A stretch of DNA of 64,000 nucleotides from Brachionus manjavacas (Eukaryota > Rotifera > Eurotatoria > Ploima > Brachionidae). Made by a program: the position numbers and the translations under genes. Positions 4,417 to 57,480 of this stretch are shown here, one piece after another; positions within the stretch are counted from its first letter, which is position 1, and the number at the start of each line of letters is the position of its first letter. The stretch is from the NCBI GenBank assembly GCA_019054805.1, contig JAHQIY010000007.1, forward strand, positions 2,423,501 to 2,487,500. The letters run 5' to 3'. The notes under the pieces are model-generated. The model worked only from the letters and a program-made list of their open reading frames with translations. It had not been told where the DNA came from and did no database searches.

Positions 4417-5133
4417 CTCAACAAAAAAAATGATGCAAAGTTCTGTTTTTTGTATAGGTTAAAGAATTTATTTTTTCTATTAAAATTTCACTTTTTAAAT
4501 TGAGAAAAAAATCCATTGAAACCGATTTTTATTAGCTTTGCTTATTTAGGCTGTGGTAAGTTTGGAGTAGAGTGCAAACGAAAAAACATCTAAGTTCAAA
4601 TGATACTTGTGCATCAATGGGATTAAGCACTCGTCAATAGTGATACACAGACTGATTCCAGTTCGGTTGTTCTTTCTTTTTTAAAGGTATTCAGATTGAA
4701 AGACTAGTACTCATATTGTAAATTTGAATACTTTTTATAAGTTTTTATATTGTCCTATTTTTTGCTTTGTAAAGTTCAACAAGATCCGATTTTTTTATTT
4801 GTGAAATCATATTTTTGACTGCTTTTTGAAAATTCATTCCTTCAGTCCCAGAAAGTTCCATTTTGTAGATATTATAGTTAATATTTAGTCATTAATAAGT
4901 TTATGTGTAGTTGACCACCTACTCATTTGCATGACAGGACAAATAAACTAAAGTTTTATCTCTTTACTTAAGCCTCACCCACTAGCTAACAAATATTACG
5001 TTTAAAAAAAAATCGCAAAAAAGTACAAAAAAGATTATCAAACCAGAAATGATTTTTTTTAAATAATTTTGAAAAATAAATAAAAATTTAAAAATCTTGT
5101 TCAAAAAATTAATTTAAAATAATGTAAATCTAC
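4417..5133. other. AT-rich spacer
   Basis: No coding stretch, RNA gene or clear repeat seen. The missing C-terminal third of the cholinesterase pseudogene is not recognisable here. Confidence 0.5.
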
Positions 5134-5135
5134 TA

Positions 5136-6035
5136 CAGTCAATCCTCCGTACAACGAAACCCCATAGAACGAAAAACCCTATAGAACGAATTCGATTATC
5201 AGAACCGATTTCGATCAATGGAAAATGAATACTTTTTATCTTCTATAGAACGAATTTCGATGCAACGAAAACCCGATACAACAAGGTTCTTCTAACGAAC
5301 CAATTAATCTTTTTCTTAAGAAATAAAACTTCATACAACGAAAAATCAAAAAAAATTCGCACCTTTATATTATAAAAAAACATTTAATTTAATTAACTAA
5401 TTGGAAATAAAGCAAAAATTTAATTGTTCTTTATTTGACTTTATCTATATTCTTTCAATAAAAAATATATATTTCTGAAGACGAATTTAAAGAATTATCT
5501 ACATTCGAAAAAAAAATAGATTTCGAAAAATATGCTTATGTTTCAGTCGACTCAAATTTAGCAGCACGTGGTTCGCTTTCTGATTTGCAAATTTTAAATA
5601 CAGTTGCTACAAAAAAGAAGAATCAGACAATAGTGACAGTGAAATTGAAGAGTTAACTCAACCGAAAAAGTCAATCATTAGTTCAAAAGAAGCAATCGAA
5701 CGAATTAACGATTTAAAAGATTTTTTTTTAAATAAACAAGAATATGATTCATCAAATATCGTTAACTTTTTGTTTAATATTGAAAATTTGGTAATTGAAA
5801 AAAGTTGTAATAAACAAACAACTATTACTTCGTATGTTAAAAAGGACTAATTTTTCTTTTCATTTTATTTTTTTATAAATTTTTTCACCTTTTTAATTTA
5901 TTTTAATAAAAATTCAAAATAATAAATCTTAAAATTTATTCAATGCTTTTGTATGGGATTTTCGATAGAACGAATTTCGATACAACGAATATAAAAATTT
6001 CCGCCCAACTTTGTCGTTATATCGAGGATTGACTG
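5136..6035 (+). mobile_element. pogo/Tigger-type (Tc1/mariner superfamily) element, internally deleted, 900 bp
   Basis: The two ends are inverted repeats: the left end begins CAGTCAATCCTCCGTACAAC and the right end, read inverted, begins CAGTCAATCCTCGATATAAC. TA dinucleotides flank both ends (5134-5135 and 6036-6037), as expected for TA target duplication in this superfamily. Subterminal regions carry many copies of short motifs of the form AGAACGAA or CAACGAAA. Between about 5478 and 5850 lies the C-terminal part of a Tigger/jerky-like transposase: a Lys/Asp/Glu-rich segment, a predicted helical stretch (KEAIERINDLKDFFLN) and the typical tail KQTTITSYVKKD followed by TAA. The reading frame slips once near 5613. 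The DNA-binding and most of the DDE region are missing, so this is a non-autonomous deletion derivative. Confidence 0.85.
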
Positions 6036-6037
6036 TA

Positions 6038-6753
6038 CTGACTAATTTATATCCTATTATTTATAGTGCATGGCTATATGGCACGAATTAAAGTTATACC
6101 AGAGAATTTGACACTCTTTTTGCTTATTGAATTCTTCGAATAATGTTGATTAATGAAGAAAATTAATTCAATTGAATTGAATCATTACCAAAAAGTGAAC
6201 ATTTTTTGAAATTTTTCCGCTCTATCTTAATCATATTTTTGCTAAAATAACTTTTTGATTTCACGTTTTTGTGATCGTTAGATTTTATTTTTAGTTTTTA
6301 AAATTTTACTGAATCAGAATGATAAAGCATTCGTTACACCAACGTTTAAAAATATTTTTAATAATTTAATGAAACTTTTCCAGACTATTGGTGATGTGAA
6401 TCGAACATTTAAATTTCAGAATTTGTTTAAAGATATTGCTAAAGTCATGATATTAAGTACATTCATATATTTATGTAATTCTTATTATCACATAATCATT
6501 TGCCTTTTCCCATTATTTATGATCAGTTTTAGATAAACTATTCAATCGAATGTTTTTATTATCGAAAAATAAATTAGATAAGTGAAAGCTTTCGCTTTGA
6601 TATTTTACTAAAAAATAAAAGGCACACCTTAAGAAAATTCTTTGAGAAACTCTTCACTTGAAGAGTTAATAATAATGAATATAAAAAAGTTTTTTTTTTT
6701 TAAATTTCTTTGTAAAATCAATTTGGATTGAATAATAAAAGTTCAATTCAGCA
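6038..6753. other. Spacer upstream of the GH31 gene (presumed promoter and 5' UTR)
   Basis: About 700 bp of AT-rich sequence between the Tigger element and the GH31 start codon. It presumably holds the promoter and 5' leader of that gene, but I see no motif I can name. Confidence 0.4.
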
Positions 6754-9700
6754 ATGAATTTTCTTTTAAAAATTATTTGTATATTATCATTTCTGGTTTG
6801 TAATGTTAAACCAGACCTTGAGACACAACGTGTCGATTGCTATCCAGAAGCACCATTCTCGTTTGGTCAATCGATTGAAGAAAAATGCCGTTTGAGAAAC
6901 TGTGTCTATCAGTATTCTTCTCGTGCCGGAGCACCATGGTGCTTTTTTCCTCAATCCGGTTTTGGCTATAAAATGACAAGTTCTAGTAAAACCGAAAAAG
7001 GAGATCGTATCTACTTAACGCGATTGACCCAGCATTTGCCTCCTTTTTCCAACCCAGTCAATGATCTCGCAATGGATATTGAATATATCAACACCAAGAC
7101 ATTGAGAATCAAAATTTATGATCGCTATAACCAACGTTACGAGGTTCCTCTTGAGCTAAATGATGTCCAAGATAAAAATCCATTCACCTCTGATTTTCAA
7201 GTTACATTTGAAAATAGAGCATCAGATTCTGTTTTTGTTTTTAAAATCATCAGAAAGTCAACTGGGACAGTCCTGTTCGATACATCAATTGGCGCTATGG
7301 TATTCTCAGATCAATTTCTACAAATTGCCACTATTTTACCAACTGATTCTAATGTTTATGGTTTTGGTGAGAATAATCATCCTCAATTAAGCCATAATAT
7401 GAACTTTAAGACCTGGGGAATGTTTGCCAGAGATGAAGCTAATGTGGCTGGTGAAGAGTTAAATCAATACGGTGTTCAGCCAGTGTATAATGTTCTAGAA
7501 GCTGACGGCAATGCACATGGCGTCGTATTGATAAACAGCAATGCTATGGAATATTCTTTTACCCCCAATCCAGCATTGATTCTTCGCTCAATCGGAGGTA
7601 TCTTCGATTTCTATTTCTTCAGTGGACCTACACCTGAATCAGTTGTTCAGCAATACACCTCTTTGGTTGGACACCCAATTATGATTCCGTATTTCTCACT
7701 TGGTTTTCAACTAAGTCGCTGGGAATACCAAGATTTAAATGATATGAAGAAAATCGTTCAGAGAAATTTGGATGCTGGTATTCCTTTGGACATTCAGTAT
7801 GCTGACATCGAGCATTTTCAGGACAAAATGGATTTCACTATTGATAGAGATAAATTTAAAGAATTGCCTGAATTTTTTCAAGAGCTTCAATCAAAAGGTA
7901 TGCATGTAGTACCAATTGTTGACCCGGCTTTAGTTATCGATCGAGGACAATTTGATTACAAACCGTATTTGGATGGTGTCACAGATGATGTTTACATAAA
8001 ATGGCCCAAAAATTTATCGCCCGATTACGCTGAAACAAGTTCAGATTCAATGATTGGATACTGCTGGCCTGATGATAAAGTCGCATATCCAGATTTTTTG
8101 AACAACAGAACTCAAAAGTGGTGGATTGACACAATTATTGAATACAGAAAAGTTAATATTTCATTTGATGCATTGTGGATTGATATGAACGAACCGGTAA
8201 GGTTTTATTCTAAAATTAATCCTGAATTAAAAAAAATATGAATCAATTATATTTTATCATGCTTTATGGAGACAACAATTTCAGTTCGTACAAAAATACC
8301 TTTTTAAAATTAAAATTTAATTTCATAATAATACAAATGAGTTCTGATGAATCCTTTAGGGCTCGATAAAGCAGTTATCTCCAATTGATTTTTTTCTTTA
8401 ATTGATATCTACAATATTGATTTGACAAAATGGTCGAGGGTATTAATATCTGGAAAAGTTCATAGACCGTAGTCCTCAAGCATTCTAATTTTTACTATTT
8501 TTGAGATTTAAACTCTGATAACATAAATTTATAGACAAAATGTTTCCCAAGAATTGTAAAGAAATTTACCAGCTTTAAATTAATACAAAAATCATTAAGC
8601 TTGACAGAAGTCGACGGAGATCATTAGATTCGTAATCAATATATCTGACTTAGATTGATAATTTAAAAAAAAAAAAATAAAAATAAAAAACTTACTTAAT
8701 TATTCTTAAGTTCATATTTTTTTACAGTAAAAAGCGACAAAAAGAGGCAAAATAATTCTAATAAAATAATAATAGTAAAATAATCATAATTAAAAGAAAA
8801 ATCTTGTTGATTCTTCAAAGTAAAAAAAGTTTAAAAAATTTGATTCCAAAACCACAGAATTTTTTCACAAGCCACAAGTAATTTACTCTTTTTTTAAATT
8901 GCGGTGTAGATGATCAACTCGATGCAGTAGCCTCTGTGTCAGATCCAAGCCGTTACTCAAAAAAGGTACTAGAAAAGGAGATGAGCACCTCTCCATTATC
9001 CACTAGGATAGAAAAAGGACTATTATTAGATTGACTTTAATTTTTCCAAATTAAAAAATAAAACACATTCTAACATTTTGTCCGAATCATGACATGATTT
9101 AAAAAAACAATTATATTTAAATTTTTCTGGATAATTTTGACACATAAAAAAGCTTGATAAAAAGTTAACTTTTGAATTATCAATCTACTTAATCTGATAG
9201 TTAAATTATAATTTTTAGTCCGTATTTGGAACGAATGAAGACAAACCGTGGAATTGGCCTGATGACAGACTTCCATATTGGTCATTGAAATGTCCATATT
9301 CAAAATATGACGATCCGCCATTTAGAACCAAAGCCGTTTACAGATATGATGAGTATCAAAGACCAGCAAGACTGTCACAAAAAACTTTGTGCATGATTGG
9401 TTTGCAAGAAGATGGCAAATACCGTCACTATGACGTTCACAATTTGTATGGTCTCAAACAAGCAAAGGCAACTCAAATAGCCACAAGATTGGCCACCGGA
9501 AAACGGAGCTTTGTGCTTTCTAGATCAACATTTATAGGCAGTGGGCGCTATGCTGGCCACTGGCTCGGAGACAACGATTCAAGTTTCAAAGATCTACACC
9601 GTTCTATCATCGGAATGATAGAATTTGGAATTTTTGGAATGTAAGCTTTATAAAACCCCTAAAAACAATCTAAAATAAATAATTTTATTTAGAACTTACA

Positions 9701-44246: not shown

Positions 44247-46895
44247 ATGTCGAGCGAAAGTATAAAGACAACTAAGAAAATCCATTTGGAGCCGATATCT
44301 ATCAGCAATCCAAAAGTATTTTTTGCTCAATAAATTCAAAATTTTACTGATCAAAGTGAATTTTAAAGATTCAGGACTTGCTTGTTGAAAGAGCTGATGA
44401 AAACTCACTGAGAGCCATATTCGATAAGGTAACATATTACGACTTAAATTTTATTTTAATTTTTTATACAAAAAAAGTACGCTTCACATAAAATCCTGAA
44501 CCAAAACGCCATAAAATCCGAAGATTTTATTCAAAAGTATCTTGGCCTATTGTCGGAAAAAGATGCCAACGAAAAAACCTTAAAAATATTAGCAAATTTA
44601 GTAGATGTTAATAAGGACGGGTATTTAAATTAAAACTTTAGAAAAAAATCCCTAATTTTTTGCAAATAAGTTACATTACTTATGATGAATTTAAAATTTT
44701 TGAAGAATCGCTTTGCTCACCGGACGTTTTGTTCAAAACAGCATTTCAGTTGTTTGACACACGAGGCATAGGCTTAATTTCGTTCAGTAAGCACCTATTG
44801 AAAGCTTAATAAAATTTAAATAGATGATTTATTTTACTAAAACTTAAGACGACTTTAAGGAAATACTCAGTCACACTATATTGAACCAGTTAATACCATT
44901 CGACTTTGAAAGTGACTTTGTGAATAATCTTTTTGGCAAGGATAAACAACGACAAATAAATTACCAAGAGTTTTCTCAAATAATTCATGTTTGTATCGGA
45001 TTATTTTAATTGGAATTTTTTTAAACATAGCTTTTTGACAGGATTTTCATGAGGAACATGCTATGCAAGCGTTTAAAAAATTCGACATCCAAAAAAAAGG
45101 TTACATTTTGCCGTCCAATTTCAAGACTATTCTTTTGCAAATGAAATCAAATTTATTGTCGCCTTATGTCCGCGAGAATATTGATGCGGTATTTGCCACT
45201 CGAATTTTTTTTTAATTATTTTGTTTGATTTTTTATTTAGCTCATAACAAAAAGTACAGACCAAAGCGTCATTACATATCCTCACTTCGCTGCCTTTATT
45301 TACTTGCTAAACAATATGGAGCTTATCAAAAAAATTTACATGGCTGTTTCAGAAGAAAACCCTAACAAAGAGGTGTCCAAAGGTAATAATTGAAGCATCA
45401 ATCTCTTAAATTTTTTTTTAATTCTCCGACTTTTAGGCCAACTTCTCAGAGAGGCCCAACAGTTCTCTCAAGTTACTCCTTACGAAATAAATATTTTATT
45501 TTCAATGATTAGAAATTTTAAAGATGACGAGTAAATTGTTAAAATTAATTAAAAAATTAAAAAAAAATTAAAAAAATTAAAATAGAAAAATTACTCTAAA
45601 AGATATTGAAAAAATTGCTCCTCTAGAAGAAAAAAGAATGCCATATCGCATTTCGGCTAAACTAGCTGAAGAAGCTCAAATTTTCCAAAACAGAAATGTA
45701 GGAGTACAAATTTTAGAAAGTGGATACAGATTTTTGCTAGGTTCAATCGCAGGTGCAATTGGTGCTTTTGCTGTCTATCCAATCGATTTGGTTAAAACCA
45801 GAATGCAAAATCAGAGATCCAAATCTTATGTAGGCGAAGTAATGTACAGAAACAGTTGGGATTGCTTTAAAAAAGTAATAAGACAAGAGGGCGTTTTGGG
45901 ACTTTACAAAGGTCTTACTGTCCAATTGATTGGTGTTGCTCCTGAAAAGGCCATTAAACTTACCGTAAATGATTTTGTTAGAGATAAATTTGTTCAATAT
46001 ACTGGTGATTTACCACTTTATGGAGAAGTGATTGCTGGAGGAATGGTAATTTTTGGCAGATTTTAAGTTTTTTTAACTCAAATTTTAAAAGGCTGGTGGC
46101 TGTCAAGTAGTTTTCACTAATCCGATGGAGATCGTCAAAATTCGAATGCAAGTTGCTGGTGAAATTCAAGCATTGGCAAGAAGTGAAAGAACAGTTAAGA
46201 TTGTACGAGAGCTGGGCTTTATGGGTCTTTACAAAGTAACTTTTTTGTCAAAAATTTTTAGGCTTTATTTTTTAATTTTCAAAAAGGGTGTGAGAGCATG
46301 TTTGCTTAGAGATATCCCATTTTCGATGATTTATTTTCCGACTTACAGTCATGTGAAAAAATCTTTTGCTGACGAAAATGGACACAATAGTGTCATGTCT
46401 TTGTTTTATGCTGGTTTAATAGCTGGTGTACCAGCAGCCGGTTTGTGTACGCCTGCTGATGTAATTAAGACCAGAATTCAAGTAAGAGAAAGGCAGGGCC
46501 AGACCCAATACAATGGTGTCATTGACGCCATGGTCAAAATTTATAAGGAAGAAGGTGGCAAGGCATTTTGGAAAGGAAGTGGAGGTAAAAATTGACTTTT
46601 GATTCTTTTAGACAAAAATGAAAAACAATTTTAAAAAGCTCGAGTTTTCCGATCATCACCACAATTTGGTGTGACTCTGGTATCTTATGAGTTGCTTCAG
46701 AGAATGTTCTGGGTTGACTTTGGAGGTAGAAAACCAGAGGGATCTCAAATCGATATTTCTAAAGATATCAAGAATAAAGAAATCACTTCACTCAATCCAG
46801 AGCATATTGGAGGATTTAAATTGGCAGCAGTTACATTTGCTGGCATTGAGAACAAATTTGGTCTATGCTTCCCAAAATACAACAAAGTTCAATAA
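44247..46895 (+). CDS. SLC25A12/SLC25A13: Mitochondrial calcium-regulated aspartate/glutamate carrier (aralar/citrin)
   Basis: Exchanges aspartate for glutamate across the inner mitochondrial membrane in the malate-aspartate shuttle. Twelve phase-consistent exons: 44247-44315, 44375-44428, 44478-44620, 44671-44786, 44849-44988, 45042-45188, 45241-45382, 45437-45530, 45586-46045, 46092-46235, 46287-46584 and 46639-46895, giving 687 residues (human proteins are about 675). The N-terminal half has EF-hand repeats; one loop is canonical (DVNKDGYITYDE, residues 84-95) and binds Ca2+ on the intermembrane side in this family. The C-terminal half has three carrier repeats with [10 protein letters not shown] (367), [11 protein letters not shown] (465) and [11 protein letters not shown] (558), and ends with [19 protein letters not shown], typical of citrin. 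The first exon is chosen because ATGTCG at 44247 leads in phase into GTATTT at 44316. AATAAA at 46998 is a likely poly(A) signal. Confidence 0.95.
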
Positions 46896-49545: not shown

Positions 49546-50175
49546 TGTGCATAGCCCCCTACGTCCAACAAAGTCTACTTAATTGTTTGCTAAAATTTAT
49601 CAAAAAGTATACGCAATTCACGTATGAACATTTGGACGACCTTACCACAGCGCACCCGGAACAAAATAAGCTCCAGATCTTGCTGAGTGTGCTGAGAGCA
49701 AAATTAAGGAAAGCTGGATGGGTCTTAAATATGCACAAATCAACTCTAAACCCGGTTAAAAACATTAATTTCCTGGGTGCAGAATGAAATGGCTTAGGGA
49801 TCATTCGCACTAAAGAGGCTTTATCCTTCGTTCTCAGCATGGCTGAGTCCTTCTCGGCCCCAAAGGAAGGCCCTTTATGAGAGTGAGGGATATCTTAACT
49901 ACTATCTGGCTTTTGTGTGAAAGGTAGGCTCCATCATTAACACCTTTCTTAAGATGACCATTACCAGAAGAGGATATTGGTGGTATTTGAGTCTGAACTA
50001 ACATTTTGACAGGCTAAAATTTAGGAAATACCCCAGATTGGACAGGGTCTGGTTCACTCACGCTTCGGATTACCAGCTTGGGGCAGTCGATGATGACTCG
50101 GGAAGGGATTTCTCAGTCATCGCCCGGGCGGACTCCATTCTTTTTAATGAAGCGACTTTAAGAAAATACCATGGA
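49546..50175 (+). mobile_element. Decayed retroelement: reverse transcriptase and RNase H fragments
   Basis: Plus-strand translation gives the second half of a reverse-transcriptase palm and thumb: FTYEHLDDLTTAHPEQNK (DD of the active site), then LRKAGWVLNMHKSTLNPVKN and INFLGAE, after which an in-frame TGA (49785-49787) stands where Trp would fit. Further on, pieces in several frames resemble the connection region (EGYLNYYLAFV) and an RNase H start (WFTHASDYQLGAV), where the usual acidic residue of TDAS is His. The region is noticeably richer in G+C than its surroundings. The order RT then RNase H fits an LTR- or DIRS-type element, not the nearby LINEs. No termini were found. Confidence 0.7.
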
Positions 50176-50811
50176 CAAGATCTCCTTAGGGTTTCTATTT
50201 ATTAATTTATATTCTAACTATTTTTTCTAACTGATATTTTTTTCCACCTCTAAATCATTTATGTATCATCTATAAAGTTTCTTAAGTGCTAATCTAATTT
50301 TACCACTTTCATTAAATCTATTTGCATTAAAATGCTATTTTATATGGTTCTTATATGGTTTTGTTTTTATTTTTTCTTGAGAAATCTTCTAATTTTAAAA
50401 CTATTAAATTCTGGTTAAAAATGAAAATTTTTTGATAGAAAAAATAAAATTTGACGATTTTAAATTGTTCATTTTATTCAAAATGCTTTTTGAATTTCTT
50501 TTTGATATTTTTGAAACGAATATTGTCTGATTTTGCTTCAAATTTTGGATTTCTTTGTTTTTAAAATAAAAAAATATTTTTTTGGTGAATAAAATAACTT
50601 TGCTGTAAAAAAAATGGAACAAGAAATCAAAGTCATGTTTTTGAAAAACAGTTGGTGAGAAATGGCTTTACAAGATTGAATTGATATTATTTTATTATTA
50701 TATCACTATATTATTAGAAATATGATAAAATGTTGCATATCATATTTAGAAAAAAAATTTAAAAATGAAACAAAAATATTTTTATTCAAATCTTAATTTT
50801 GAGAAAAATAA
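50176..50811. other. AT-rich spacer
   Basis: No gene or repeat that I can support. Confidence 0.5.
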
Positions 50812-51624
50812 TTATTTAAATTCTACTTTTAGAATTTCATGTAATAATTGATCGAATTTATCATGATTCAAAATTTCTGCATTTAAAGATTCATTTTTTT
50901 CAATTTCTGCAATACTTTTATTTTCTAGTAAATCCTCTATCCATTCATCAATGCATTCAATTCTCGAGCCTAAATTGGCTTCATTTGAATTTCTCTTTAA
51001 ATAAATTATTTCGTGTATTTTTTCATTTACATTTTCTTTTAAATAGGGCTTTAATTGATTCAATACTTTATCAAAGTTGACATAAAATACATCACTATCG
51101 TTTTTTGGACGATTTAGCAACCATTGAAACATTCCAATCGGCCTAATGACATATAAATATTTTTTTATATTAACTTCATTCTTTTCTTTTATATGAGACT
51201 TGTAATTTGACTTTGCCATTGATCTATAGTGATTTAAAAGAGGACTTAAACGATTCTGCTCAATTAATAAATTTTTCATATAATTAATATATTTCTCGAA
51301 TTGACCGTCTTTTGAATAAACAATTGGTGAATACAACCACTCAGTAATTGTAGGATTAACTTTTTGTATCAATTTAAGACATTTTGTTATGTCCCAACCT
51401 TGCCAATCATAAACTCTGTCATCACTAAATCCATCAATAGTTTCTTTGAATGCTGTTAAACTTAGATACTTTTTTCGATTTTCATGGATGTATATGAATC
51501 TTATGTCATAATCTGAATCATTTGACTCAAAACCCCATGCTCGACTTCCAGCTTCAATTGCATAAATGATTTTGATATCGTTTTTTTTTTCTAAATCTCT
51601 AAGAATGCTATCAATTTTTTCCAT
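50812..51624 (-). CDS. RlaP/YcgL-type predicted nucleotidyltransferase (DNA polymerase beta superfamily)
   Basis: A 270-residue, intronless protein. Residues 25-43 contain the nucleotidyltransferase signature AGSRAWGFESNDSDYDIRF: Gly26-Ser27, then Asp38 and Asp40 as metal-binding carboxylates. The downstream pattern (FSDDRVYDWQGWDITKCLKL, then PTITEWLYSPIVY, then IRPIGMFQWLLNRP) is the layout of the family in which bacterial and phage members are linked with RNA repair (RlaP; COG3541-like). The exact reaction is not established for the family, so I give no substrate. It sits between retroelement remains and AT-rich spacer, with introns absent, unlike its neighbours. Its codon use is as AT-rich as the surroundings, so any transfer is old or came from an AT-rich donor. 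The start at 51624 is the first ATG after several stop codons. Confidence 0.85.
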   Translation of the reverse strand: MEKIDSILRDLEKKNDIKIIYAIEAGSRAWGFESNDSDYDIRFIYIHENRKKYLSLTAFKETIDGFSDDRVYDWQGWDITKCLKLIQKVNPTITEWLYSPIVYSKDGQFEKYINYMKNLLIEQNRLSPLLNHYRSMAKSNYKSHIKEKNEVNIKKYLYVIRPIGMFQWLLNRPKNDSDVFYVNFDKVLNQLKPYLKENVNEKIHEIIYLKRNSNEANLGSRIECIDEWIEDLLENKSIAEIEKNESLNAEILNHDKFDQLLHEILKVEFK

Positions 51625-54837: not shown

Positions 54838-57480
54838 TTATTTGGACGATGTTTGTAGGTTGTTTAAAAAATCGTTTTTATTTATAACTTTTTCAGTAAA
54901 TGAGCTGAGCATGTTATCTTGGGTCCGGTTGTCATTTTCGCCATTCATGTTTGCATTGTAGCTAAAGATGCCCATGCTTTCCAATTGACGCAAAATGTCG
55001 CTTGGCATTTTTGTTTTGAGAAGTCGATTCTCCTGCTCTAGTCGATTGCAATGCTCTCTCAAATTTTTTATTTGATTCTTTAGCGTAACTATTTCATCCC
55101 TTACCGCTTGGGTTAAGTGAGACTTTACCATGTCCATCGCTTCTGCAATTTTATCGTGAATGCCACTATCGGCTTTTTTTGCATCTAGCGTTTGGTCACC
55201 TATGGCAGCATCAGAGTCTTTCGAGCTGTATTGTAGATTTTCGCTAGAATTAATACCGTTCGGAAGCTTTACTAAATTTTGGTCTTTGGGTGAAGCTTGT
55301 TGGGGAGGAATTTGAGAATTTGCTTGGGTTCCGACCGAAATGTTTTCCTTTGTGTTCGTCGATGGTACATTCACTGATTGGTTTTGTGCTTGACTAGGAA
55401 AATTTTGTTGAATGTGTGATTGAGTATTATCAGTATGTTGATTATTAATAGCAACATTGGGGTGACTGTTCTGAGTCGAATTTTGGTTGGCGCCGATCTG
55501 GGAACTAGTGGCAACTAAATTGTTTGCATTCGGTTGGGAAAAATTTGAGCTAGATGCTTGGTTTAATATCTGATAGTTTTGAGCGGGTGTTTGTGTCGAT
55601 TGGTGGTATACTTGGTTACTAATGTAGTAGTTTGAACTGGTTTCTGGATTACTGGTCGATTGAGATTGGTAAGGTGCAGACGCATTAGAAAGTGGATTGC
55701 CCAAAACTTTGCCTTGGTCATTAGCTAAATTAAATAAATCAGCGAATTTTGACCAAAATGAGAAAAATTATATATTTTTAAATTATTTTTTTAAGAAGTT
55801 TAGAGCGTTTTTTAAGTTAAGGAAAATGTCTCTATTTCAGTTTATTTGAAAAATAATTTCATTTAAAATTTATTAGATTATTTTATTTGTTTCTACCAAA
55901 CACAAATACTGGACTTATAGACAATCATGTTTATTTTTATTAAATAAGATATAAAAATTTTCTTTTTTTTCTTTTTTTACAAATGAAATTAATTAACAAG
56001 CTTTTGTATTTTTATTAGCCACATCAGGAGTCAAATTATTTGAAATTCTTTAGAATAGCTGCTAAAATGAAAAACTCAGATTAAAAAGTAACATTTTGAA
56101 AAATTAGCTTTTATTTCAAAAATTGACATAAAATGTTCTCACTTGTGGTAAAATATTGCTTTTATACTTGATGAAATTTTTTATTATTTTTTTTACGATG
56201 GCCTTTATTGATGTTGAACCAGATTTTACGTTCTTGATTTGAATTTTTAAGTTATTTAAATTTTAGTCAATTTACACCGATCAAAAGTTTTAAGTAACAA
56301 AAAAGCAAGCTTTAAGAAAATTTTTTCAATATTTCCTATGACTGAATTTTTTAAACAATTTTTCTTTTAAATTATCCAAAAATAAATATTCAGTGTGTAT
56401 TTTGATTATGCCTTGAAAAACAAATGTTTAAATTTTATAGCTATATTCTTTAATTTTACATTTATATATATTTTAAAGAAGCAAGATTTTATCTTAAATA
56501 AAGCAAACATCATTAAAAAAAATCTAAAAAATACAAGTCATATTGAAATAAAATATGGCTCAGTTTTTTTCTAATTTAAGTGTAATTTTAAATCACTTTT
56601 TTTTGAATAAATAGATTTTTTAAAGATGTTAAACAAAAAAACTCTATAATTAATTCAATTAAAAAAAAACTAGAATAATTTTGAATTTTTGATTCTTTTA
56701 CAAACAACTAAAATAAACAGCTCGTAAAATGTGTTTACCAAAGCTGACATTCAGCAAAGCTAGTTAATATTTCATTAATTTTCAAAATACAAAAATTCAA
56801 ATCTCATTCATTCAAACAAATAGTTTAGTAAATAAACCTTTAAAGTTTTCTAAATGCCAGTATTTGCATTTTGGAAAATTATTTAGCAAAAAGTTTGATC
56901 ATGAGTGATAACATTTATTTAACCTTTAATGAATAATCATTAACTTACAATTGATTGGATTTGGTTGATTAGGTGTGACATTCGAAAGAACAGTTGATTC
57001 CTCATTTTTAGCCTGGTTCTGGATGCTGGTCTGGGTGATGTGGTTGGATCCATTCAAAGCCGACTGATTCGATGACTTTGCTGATGATAAATTTTCGGTC
57101 GAGAACTCGGCTACATACCATCTACCTCGTTGGTAATTATTGAACTGATTTTTCGCTTGTATCGTATTCACATCGGTAAGTTTGTTTTGTTGGTTTGCAC
57201 CTTGGTCATTTGTTTGTGTCAAATTTTGGTTATTTTCATCAGTCGGCTCATTTTTCCTATCGGCATCGGTCTTTACAATCCGAAATCGGTTAGATTCCTT
57301 CTGGGAAGTAACTGGATGACTTGACCGTGACACGCCAGTTATCTCCAATTGGCTCTGAGGATGGTGAGCCGGCTGAGGATGGTTAGAAGTGCTGGTTGAC
57401 TTTGATTCATTTGAAAAATTCGACTCCTGATTGCTCTTGATCACTGGTCCATTGTTCGTTGATGTTGTTTGAACATTCAT
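54838..57480 (-). CDS. TSC22D: TSC22-domain (bunched-like) leucine-zipper regulator, long isoform
   Basis: Two exons on the minus strand, 57480-56949 and 55724-54838, join in phase 1 through a 1224-bp intron (donor GTAAGT, acceptor TTTAATTTAG) and give about 472 residues. The C-terminal TSC box begins SGIHDKIAEAMDMVKSHLTQ (about residues 364-383) and runs into a leucine zipper with Leu at about 392, 399, 406 and 413. The N-terminal part holds the two motifs of long TSC22/bunched isoforms, NRFRIVKTDAD (64-74) and RGRWYVAEFST (118-128). The stretch between is very rich in Gln, Asn and Ser. In animals the family dimerises and controls growth, stress and cell-volume responses. The ATG at 57480 is used because the only open upstream codons lack an ATG. 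A short isoform from a promoter in the intron is possible but not shown. Confidence 0.92.

Follow-up and report, generated by a model that had tools for sequence, protein, structure and literature searches.

Does an animal chromosome carry an intact copy of RlaP, a nucleotidyltransferase of microbes and viruses, and how would it have come there? The question is raised by a 64,000-nucleotide stretch of the genome of the monogonont rotifer Brachionus manjavacas (the window), which spans positions 2,423,501 to 2,487,500 of contig C7 (JAHQIY010000007.1). The RlaP-type gene occupies positions 50812..51624 of the window on the minus strand, as a single uninterrupted frame of 270 residues running from an ATG at 51624 to a TAA stop codon that ends at 50812. 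The first-pass annotation of this DNA had placed the gene at exactly these coordinates, leaving its strand unstated. An in-frame stop starts 6 nucleotides upstream of the ATG, which has an A at -3 and a G at +4. When the surrounding 7.5 kb was simulated 300 times with a first-order Markov model, stop-free frames reached at most 142 codons, so the 270-codon frame is not a product of chance. The locus is internal to C7, a contig of 6,365,377 bases, and the window contains no N, so it is gap-free. RlaP is physically integrated in the animal chromosome; judged from its sequence, the gene encodes an intact RlaP-type enzyme, and its origin is probably horizontal.

The predicted protein matches the Pfam family RlaP (PF10127) with an E-value of 1.3e-54 and a score of 185.9 bits, exceeding the curated cut-off of 23. 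The match covers residues 3-243 and profile positions 4-232 of 249. The family phrog_14344, described as 'nucleotidyltransferase', also matches (4.6e-57). The Pol-beta signature is encoded at 51505..51549 (minus strand), where residues 26-40 read GSRAWGFESNDSDYD and fit exactly the GSxxxGxxSxxSDxD pattern that the annotation had called intact. Within it, Asp38 and Asp40 presumably bind metal. Asp73, whose codon is at 51406..51408 (minus strand), is the presumed third catalytic carboxylate. Gly26, Ser27, Asp38, Asp40, and Asp73 are identical in the rotifer protein and all 30 aligned relatives, and 26 of the 27 columns that are invariant among these relatives are kept, including all putative catalytic ones. 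The earlier description of a full-length, intact enzyme of this type is thereby borne out. The AlphaFold2 model (predicted local distance difference test score 91.2, predicted template modelling score 0.88) has mixed strands and helices up to about residue 105 and is mostly helical thereafter, corresponding to a palm and a helical C-terminal domain. Like the other members of the family, named 'YcgL' in several phages, the rotifer protein is full-length, carries the Pol-beta signature, and has a similar length. Unlike them, it comes from an animal and is encoded without a ligase gene beside it; its identity to the members compared does not exceed 44%. Protein and family searches of the rotifer genome (114,169,980 bases in 61 contigs), with the best candidates scored, found no second copy. 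PADLOC returned nothing for the protein, and no PDB chain matched its sequence at E<=1.

Relatives were sought in prokaryote genomes and in phage, plasmid, and viral (IMG/VR) records, this rotifer being the only eukaryotic genome searched. They occur in 78 of 50,697 phage records and 27 of 72,556 plasmid records. Single-sequence scans with the rotifer protein gave no relative among 65 candidate stretches in prokaryote genomes and 10 in viral records, whereas alignment-based scans recovered at least 589 relatives among 596 candidate stretches in the former and 87 among 117 in IMG/VR. Local identity is 28-40% among the 80 prokaryote loci kept out of at least 589, so that a closer relative among bacteria may have escaped notice; rescoring of four genomes gave 40-44%. 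The family also matches three of 14 control prokaryotes, Bacillus subtilis among them. The copies of the jumbo phages BcepSauron and PA1C and of an AT-rich viral contig (L106) are about 33-38% identical to the rotifer protein. Among viral proteins, Terrestrivirus A0A3G4ZQ79 is structurally the closest, with 40% identity over 260 columns; at 515 residues, it carries extra sequence compared with the 270-residue rotifer protein. A Yasminevirus protein also matches structurally, with 30% identity. We take both viruses to be giant viruses of protists. In the paper listings and passages that the literature search covered, RlaP is not described from any animal.

For tree inference, the 168 relatives were reduced to 124 by dropping those shorter than 225 residues and those sharing 80% or more identity with a retained row. 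In the FastTree phylogeny of 125 rows, the rotifer protein sits on a long branch and joins no starred group. In an IQ-TREE phylogeny of 52 rows (51 hand-picked relatives), it groups with four phage or viral rows (96/98), with a long-branch warning. Four further trees, inferred quickly from 41 to 36 rows (40, 39, 36, and 35 hand-picked relatives), three of them without viral rows, likewise give it no starred group, although one places it beside three viral rows at 93. The trees thus lean towards the phage and viral copies, with an unstable placement. We rejected any named donor, as the position shifts between trees, and the source may be a bacterium, a phage, a giant virus, or an older eukaryotic lineage. 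The protein search and tree proposed in the first-pass annotation yielded relatives only in prokaryotes and viruses, the collections sampled, and a clade that changes from tree to tree; its claim of horizontal acquisition, with relatives that are bacterial, archaeal, and viral, stands as likely rather than proven. On balance, we favour the account that the rotifer lineage acquired a working RlaP nucleotidyltransferase from a bacterium, phage, or giant virus and then kept it.

The gene neighbourhoods of the family link it to RNA repair. Using single-sequence queries, we counted partner families in flanks of up to 3 kb around 80 prokaryote loci and of up to 5 kb around 80 viral loci. These counts are lower bounds, taken without a background rate; several loci run into contig ends, and the queries miss divergent ligases, such as that of L106. 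RtcB lies near RlaP in 24 of the 80 prokaryote and 4 of the 80 viral loci, SPFH/slipin in 6 and 1, and a relative of the BcepSauron RnlA query in 0 and 1, respectively. RtcB is directly upstream of RlaP in Treponema saccharophilum. In phage BcepSauron, an annotated RNA ligase is encoded upstream of RlaP, with three small genes in between, and phage HHBS36_1 has a 'tRNA splicing ligase' downstream. On L106 (positions 4956-7289), RlaP, a calcineurin-like phosphoesterase, and a PF09414 RNA ligase stand in a row as a compact phage-type repair cassette. A separate observation concerns a 186-kb viral contig, in which a frame with a repeated ARGK-like peptide (L112:605-982) looks by eye like a translated array of clustered regularly interspaced short palindromic repeats (CRISPR). 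In jumbo phages, the distribution of RlaP parallels that of RNA ligases, and the enzyme is predicted to replace missing nucleotides ahead of ligation (PMC7824862); RlaP is also found across several counter-RNase repair systems (PMC6514570). Together with the RtcB and ligase neighbours, these reports uphold the link to RNA repair by genomic association that the annotation had drawn. In its microbial and viral carriers, RlaP probably rebuilds the ends of broken RNA.

We then considered which ligase could partner the rotifer enzyme. The search for one elsewhere in the genome, also suggested beforehand, found a candidate Rnl2-like RNA ligase at C1:2595919-2596878 (L174:1408-2367), an uninterrupted 319-residue frame from an ATG on a 12.1-Mb contig. 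It matches PF09414 (7.6e-15) and phrog_548 (1.6e-26), occurs once in the genome, and aligns its KxDG motif and the later conserved motifs colinearly with T4-type Rnl2. It differs from T4 Rnl2 in that the T4_Rnl2_C domain scores 22.2 bits, below the Pfam cut-off of 27. Its identity to relatives from phages and viruses is about 21-32%, with 30% for the best viral one by E-value, and its best PDB chain is a trypanosome editing ligase (E=0.0056). Its relatives comprise 12 phage-record matches and 59 of 234 candidate stretches in an alignment-based scan; plasmid records and a single-sequence viral scan gave none. The second PF09414 match in the genome was rejected as an ordinary DNA ligase IV. An uninterrupted 691-residue frame 2.1 kb upstream of the Rnl2-like ligase (C1:2591587-2593662; L177:588-2663) carries the P-loop-like motif SSGFGKTR and has no Pfam match; by eye, it resembles Crinkler-type ATPases. 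PADLOC returned nothing for either the ligase or this frame. RtcB is encoded on C5 in two pieces, presumably exons. T4-Rnl1-type ligases (PF09511) and RLIG1 (PF17720) are unmatched in the rotifer genome, which is uninformative, as the control genomes are unmatched too. Also on C5, around position 5344670 (L176:1-3387), an open frame of at least 1128 codons combines MJ1316, endonuclease/exonuclease/phosphatase, 2H, and poly(A)-polymerase domains, and the PF13563 match on this contig lies inside it. By its domain content, this frame is a further candidate RNA-end-processing protein of an all-in-one kind.

These components allow a mechanism to be proposed. Through Asp38, Asp40, and probably Asp73, RlaP would add nucleotides from nucleoside triphosphates to the 3' ends of cut and trimmed RNA. 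Candidate substrates are oxidatively broken RNA and the targets of ribotoxins, such as rRNA or the anticodon loops of tRNA. The strand would then be resealed by a ligase from another locus, either the Rnl2-like enzyme on C1 or RtcB on C5. Many prokaryotes have adjacent RlaP and ligase genes; in the rotifer, the two enzymes would act in trans. The class and intactness of the enzyme can be read from its sequence, while its substrate, expression, and cooperation with a ligase are inferred. We tentatively suggest that RlaP and the Rnl2-like ligase, with or without RtcB, could form a monogonont RNA-restoration pathway of microbial or viral genes that protects against ribotoxins or stress-induced RNA breakage, though we consider such a pathway doubtful at present. 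Bdelloid rotifers offer a likeness, as they have likewise kept foreign RNA-repair genes, namely horizontally acquired RNA ligases (PMC11258130, PMC10809525). Such ligases are strongly induced under fungal attack (PMC11258130), and two are induced after radiation (PMC10809525), which makes a defence or stress role for RlaP plausible. The bdelloid genes differ in encoding ligases, whereas RlaP would be a nucleotide-restoring enzyme and belongs to a monogonont. The foreign genes of the two groups differ in a further respect, because a foreign DNA ligase of bdelloids is reported to be absent from Brachionus plicatilis (PMC10665377).

Several observations count against the account of acquisition and a role in RNA repair, and we weigh them together with the rival explanations. 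As the relatives sampled are prokaryotic and viral, vertical inheritance is also compatible with the data. RlaP could be an old eukaryotic gene with patchy retention, passed on by descent or traded between eukaryotes and their giant viruses, instead of having come straight from a bacterium or phage. The giant-virus protein of Terrestrivirus being the best viral structural match, with that of Yasminevirus behind it, favours this possibility, as does the long rotifer branch, which finds no stable place in any bacterial group. PMC11258130 quotes a review as saying that RNA-repair systems have spread between prokaryotes and microbial eukaryotes. On the other hand, no eukaryotic cellular relative was seen in the prokaryotic and viral collections, and the giant-virus identity (40%) equals, but does not exceed, the bacterial one (40-44% in four genomes). 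We regard an old eukaryotic origin as possible, at a clearly lower probability than acquisition from a bacterium, phage, or giant virus.

Other adverse points concern function. The best relatives are only about 38-44% identical, so the substrate may differ, and the invariant Pro181 is a Tyr in the rotifer protein, at a small insertion with uncertain alignment. The nearest solved folds to the AlphaFold2 model are mostly nucleotidyltransferases of distant similarity: the Foldseek template modelling scores are mostly below 0.5, and the matches include antibiotic adenylyltransferases, an AMPylating domain, and a defence-signal synthase. Since the solved matches are distant and span other nucleotidyltransferase activities, the fold gives no evidence that RNA is the substrate. 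Of the prokaryote RlaP loci, 55 of 80 are without any queried partner family. The rotifer Rnl2-like ligase query matched none of the 80 prokaryote and none of the 80 viral loci, so this ligase type is not a usual RlaP neighbour. Three of the phage and viral RlaP copies examined have ligase genes nearby, but the rotifer copy does not; its recognised neighbours are a mitochondrial carrier, a reverse-transcriptase (RVT) remnant, and TSC22. As all whole-genome ligase matches lie on contigs other than C7, we do not class the rotifer gene as part of an RlaP-ligase cassette. PMC11258130 reports a bdelloid desiccation response without enrichment of RNA-ligase functions, which disfavours a role in drying. 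The enzyme might have been recruited to another substrate, in small-molecule modification, protein AMPylation, or oligonucleotide signalling. We consider such a recruitment unlikely, given that the RlaP profile is matched almost end to end and that 26 of 27 family-invariant residues are kept.

A mitochondrial-carrier (SLC25-type) host gene consists of two open reading frames (ORFs) at 45638..46595 (plus strand; Mito_carr 1.6e-27 and 1.1e-26), which end 4.2 kb from RlaP. A TSC22-family host gene at 54841..55704 (minus strand; E=9.5e-19) lies 3.2 kb from the RlaP start codon, so that animal-type genes flank RlaP on both sides, as had been described. The retroelement debris noted beside the gene was recovered on one side, as a reverse-transcriptase remnant at 49587..49784 (plus strand), about 1 kb away; its RVT_1 match is weak (E=5.8e-6, 26.6 bits) and under the Pfam cut-off of 29.6. 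An AATAAA at 50781..50786 (minus strand), 25 nucleotides past the stop codon, is a possible polyadenylation signal and could easily arise by chance at the local base composition. The genes recognised across the window, namely GH31, separase, a G-protein-coupled receptor (GPCR), the mitochondrial carrier, TSC22, and RING, fit an animal of the rotifer kind, as does the guanine-cytosine (GC) content of 27%. The mlh3 CRISPR target published for B. manjavacas (PMC10395877) has a single exact counterpart in the genome, and the two mlh3 genotyping primers are matched perfectly within that 3-kb locus. From the published repair template, the right arm also matches; the left arm, probably cut too long, matches over its first 20 of 29 bases and ends beside the right one. 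The DNA thus belongs to B. manjavacas or to a very near relative. The absence of introns, earlier cited as a sign of transfer, is confirmed as one uninterrupted frame. It is weak evidence of transfer, because the DNA ligase IV gene (LIG4; 935 codons) and the window GPCR gene (797 codons) are also single frames, and vasa of this species is described as a single exon (PMC10395877).

The composition of RlaP itself speaks partly against retention of a working gene. The GC content at its third codon positions is 20%, as low as in the spacer DNA nearby and lower than in any of the seven host ORFs used for comparison (23-42%), consistent with weak expression. Its codon fractions correlate at 0.83 with eleven pooled host ORFs, at 0.90 with the AT-rich viral copy L106 (23% GC), and at 0.83 with the bacterial copy L072. 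As these values are similar for host, viral, and bacterial copies, base composition cannot date the residence of the gene, and its host-like codon usage is not decisive against a recent, unexpressed insertion that was dead on arrival and whose decay is still to come. The nearby retroelement remnant would also suit such an insertion. Yet the frame is intact, none of the putative catalytic residues is missing, and no near-identical donor was found in the prokaryote, phage, plasmid, and viral collections. A dead insertion is accordingly improbable, slightly more so than recruitment to another substrate.

The same assembly contains a bacterial cyoABC ubiquinol-oxidase operon (C21:120555-121901; L011; 34% GC), in which CyoA is over its NCBIfam cut-off, CyoB scores 1020.2 bits against 1020.35, and CyoC is below. 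At least one contig is thus bacterial, perhaps from a symbiont or a culture bacterium, which qualifies the earlier judgement that contamination is unlikely and leaves C7 unaffected. An assembly artefact or bacterial DNA joined to rotifer DNA is very improbable for RlaP itself, which, despite that contig, lies inside a 6.4-Mb contig in a window free of N, has animal genes no more than 4.3 kb away in either direction, and shares the GC content of its surroundings (26.6% against 27.0%).

Rotifers are known for foreign genes, and foreign RNA ligases are already known in bdelloids. The present locus would add a possible nucleotide-restoring step in a gene-editable rotifer. It places in an animal an intact enzyme that was seen elsewhere in this analysis only in bacteria, archaea, and large viruses. 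Heritable CRISPR knockouts exist for B. manjavacas (PMC10395877). With an RlaP that would act before ligation and a candidate ligase in the same CRISPR-tractable animal, the question of RNA repair becomes genetically testable.
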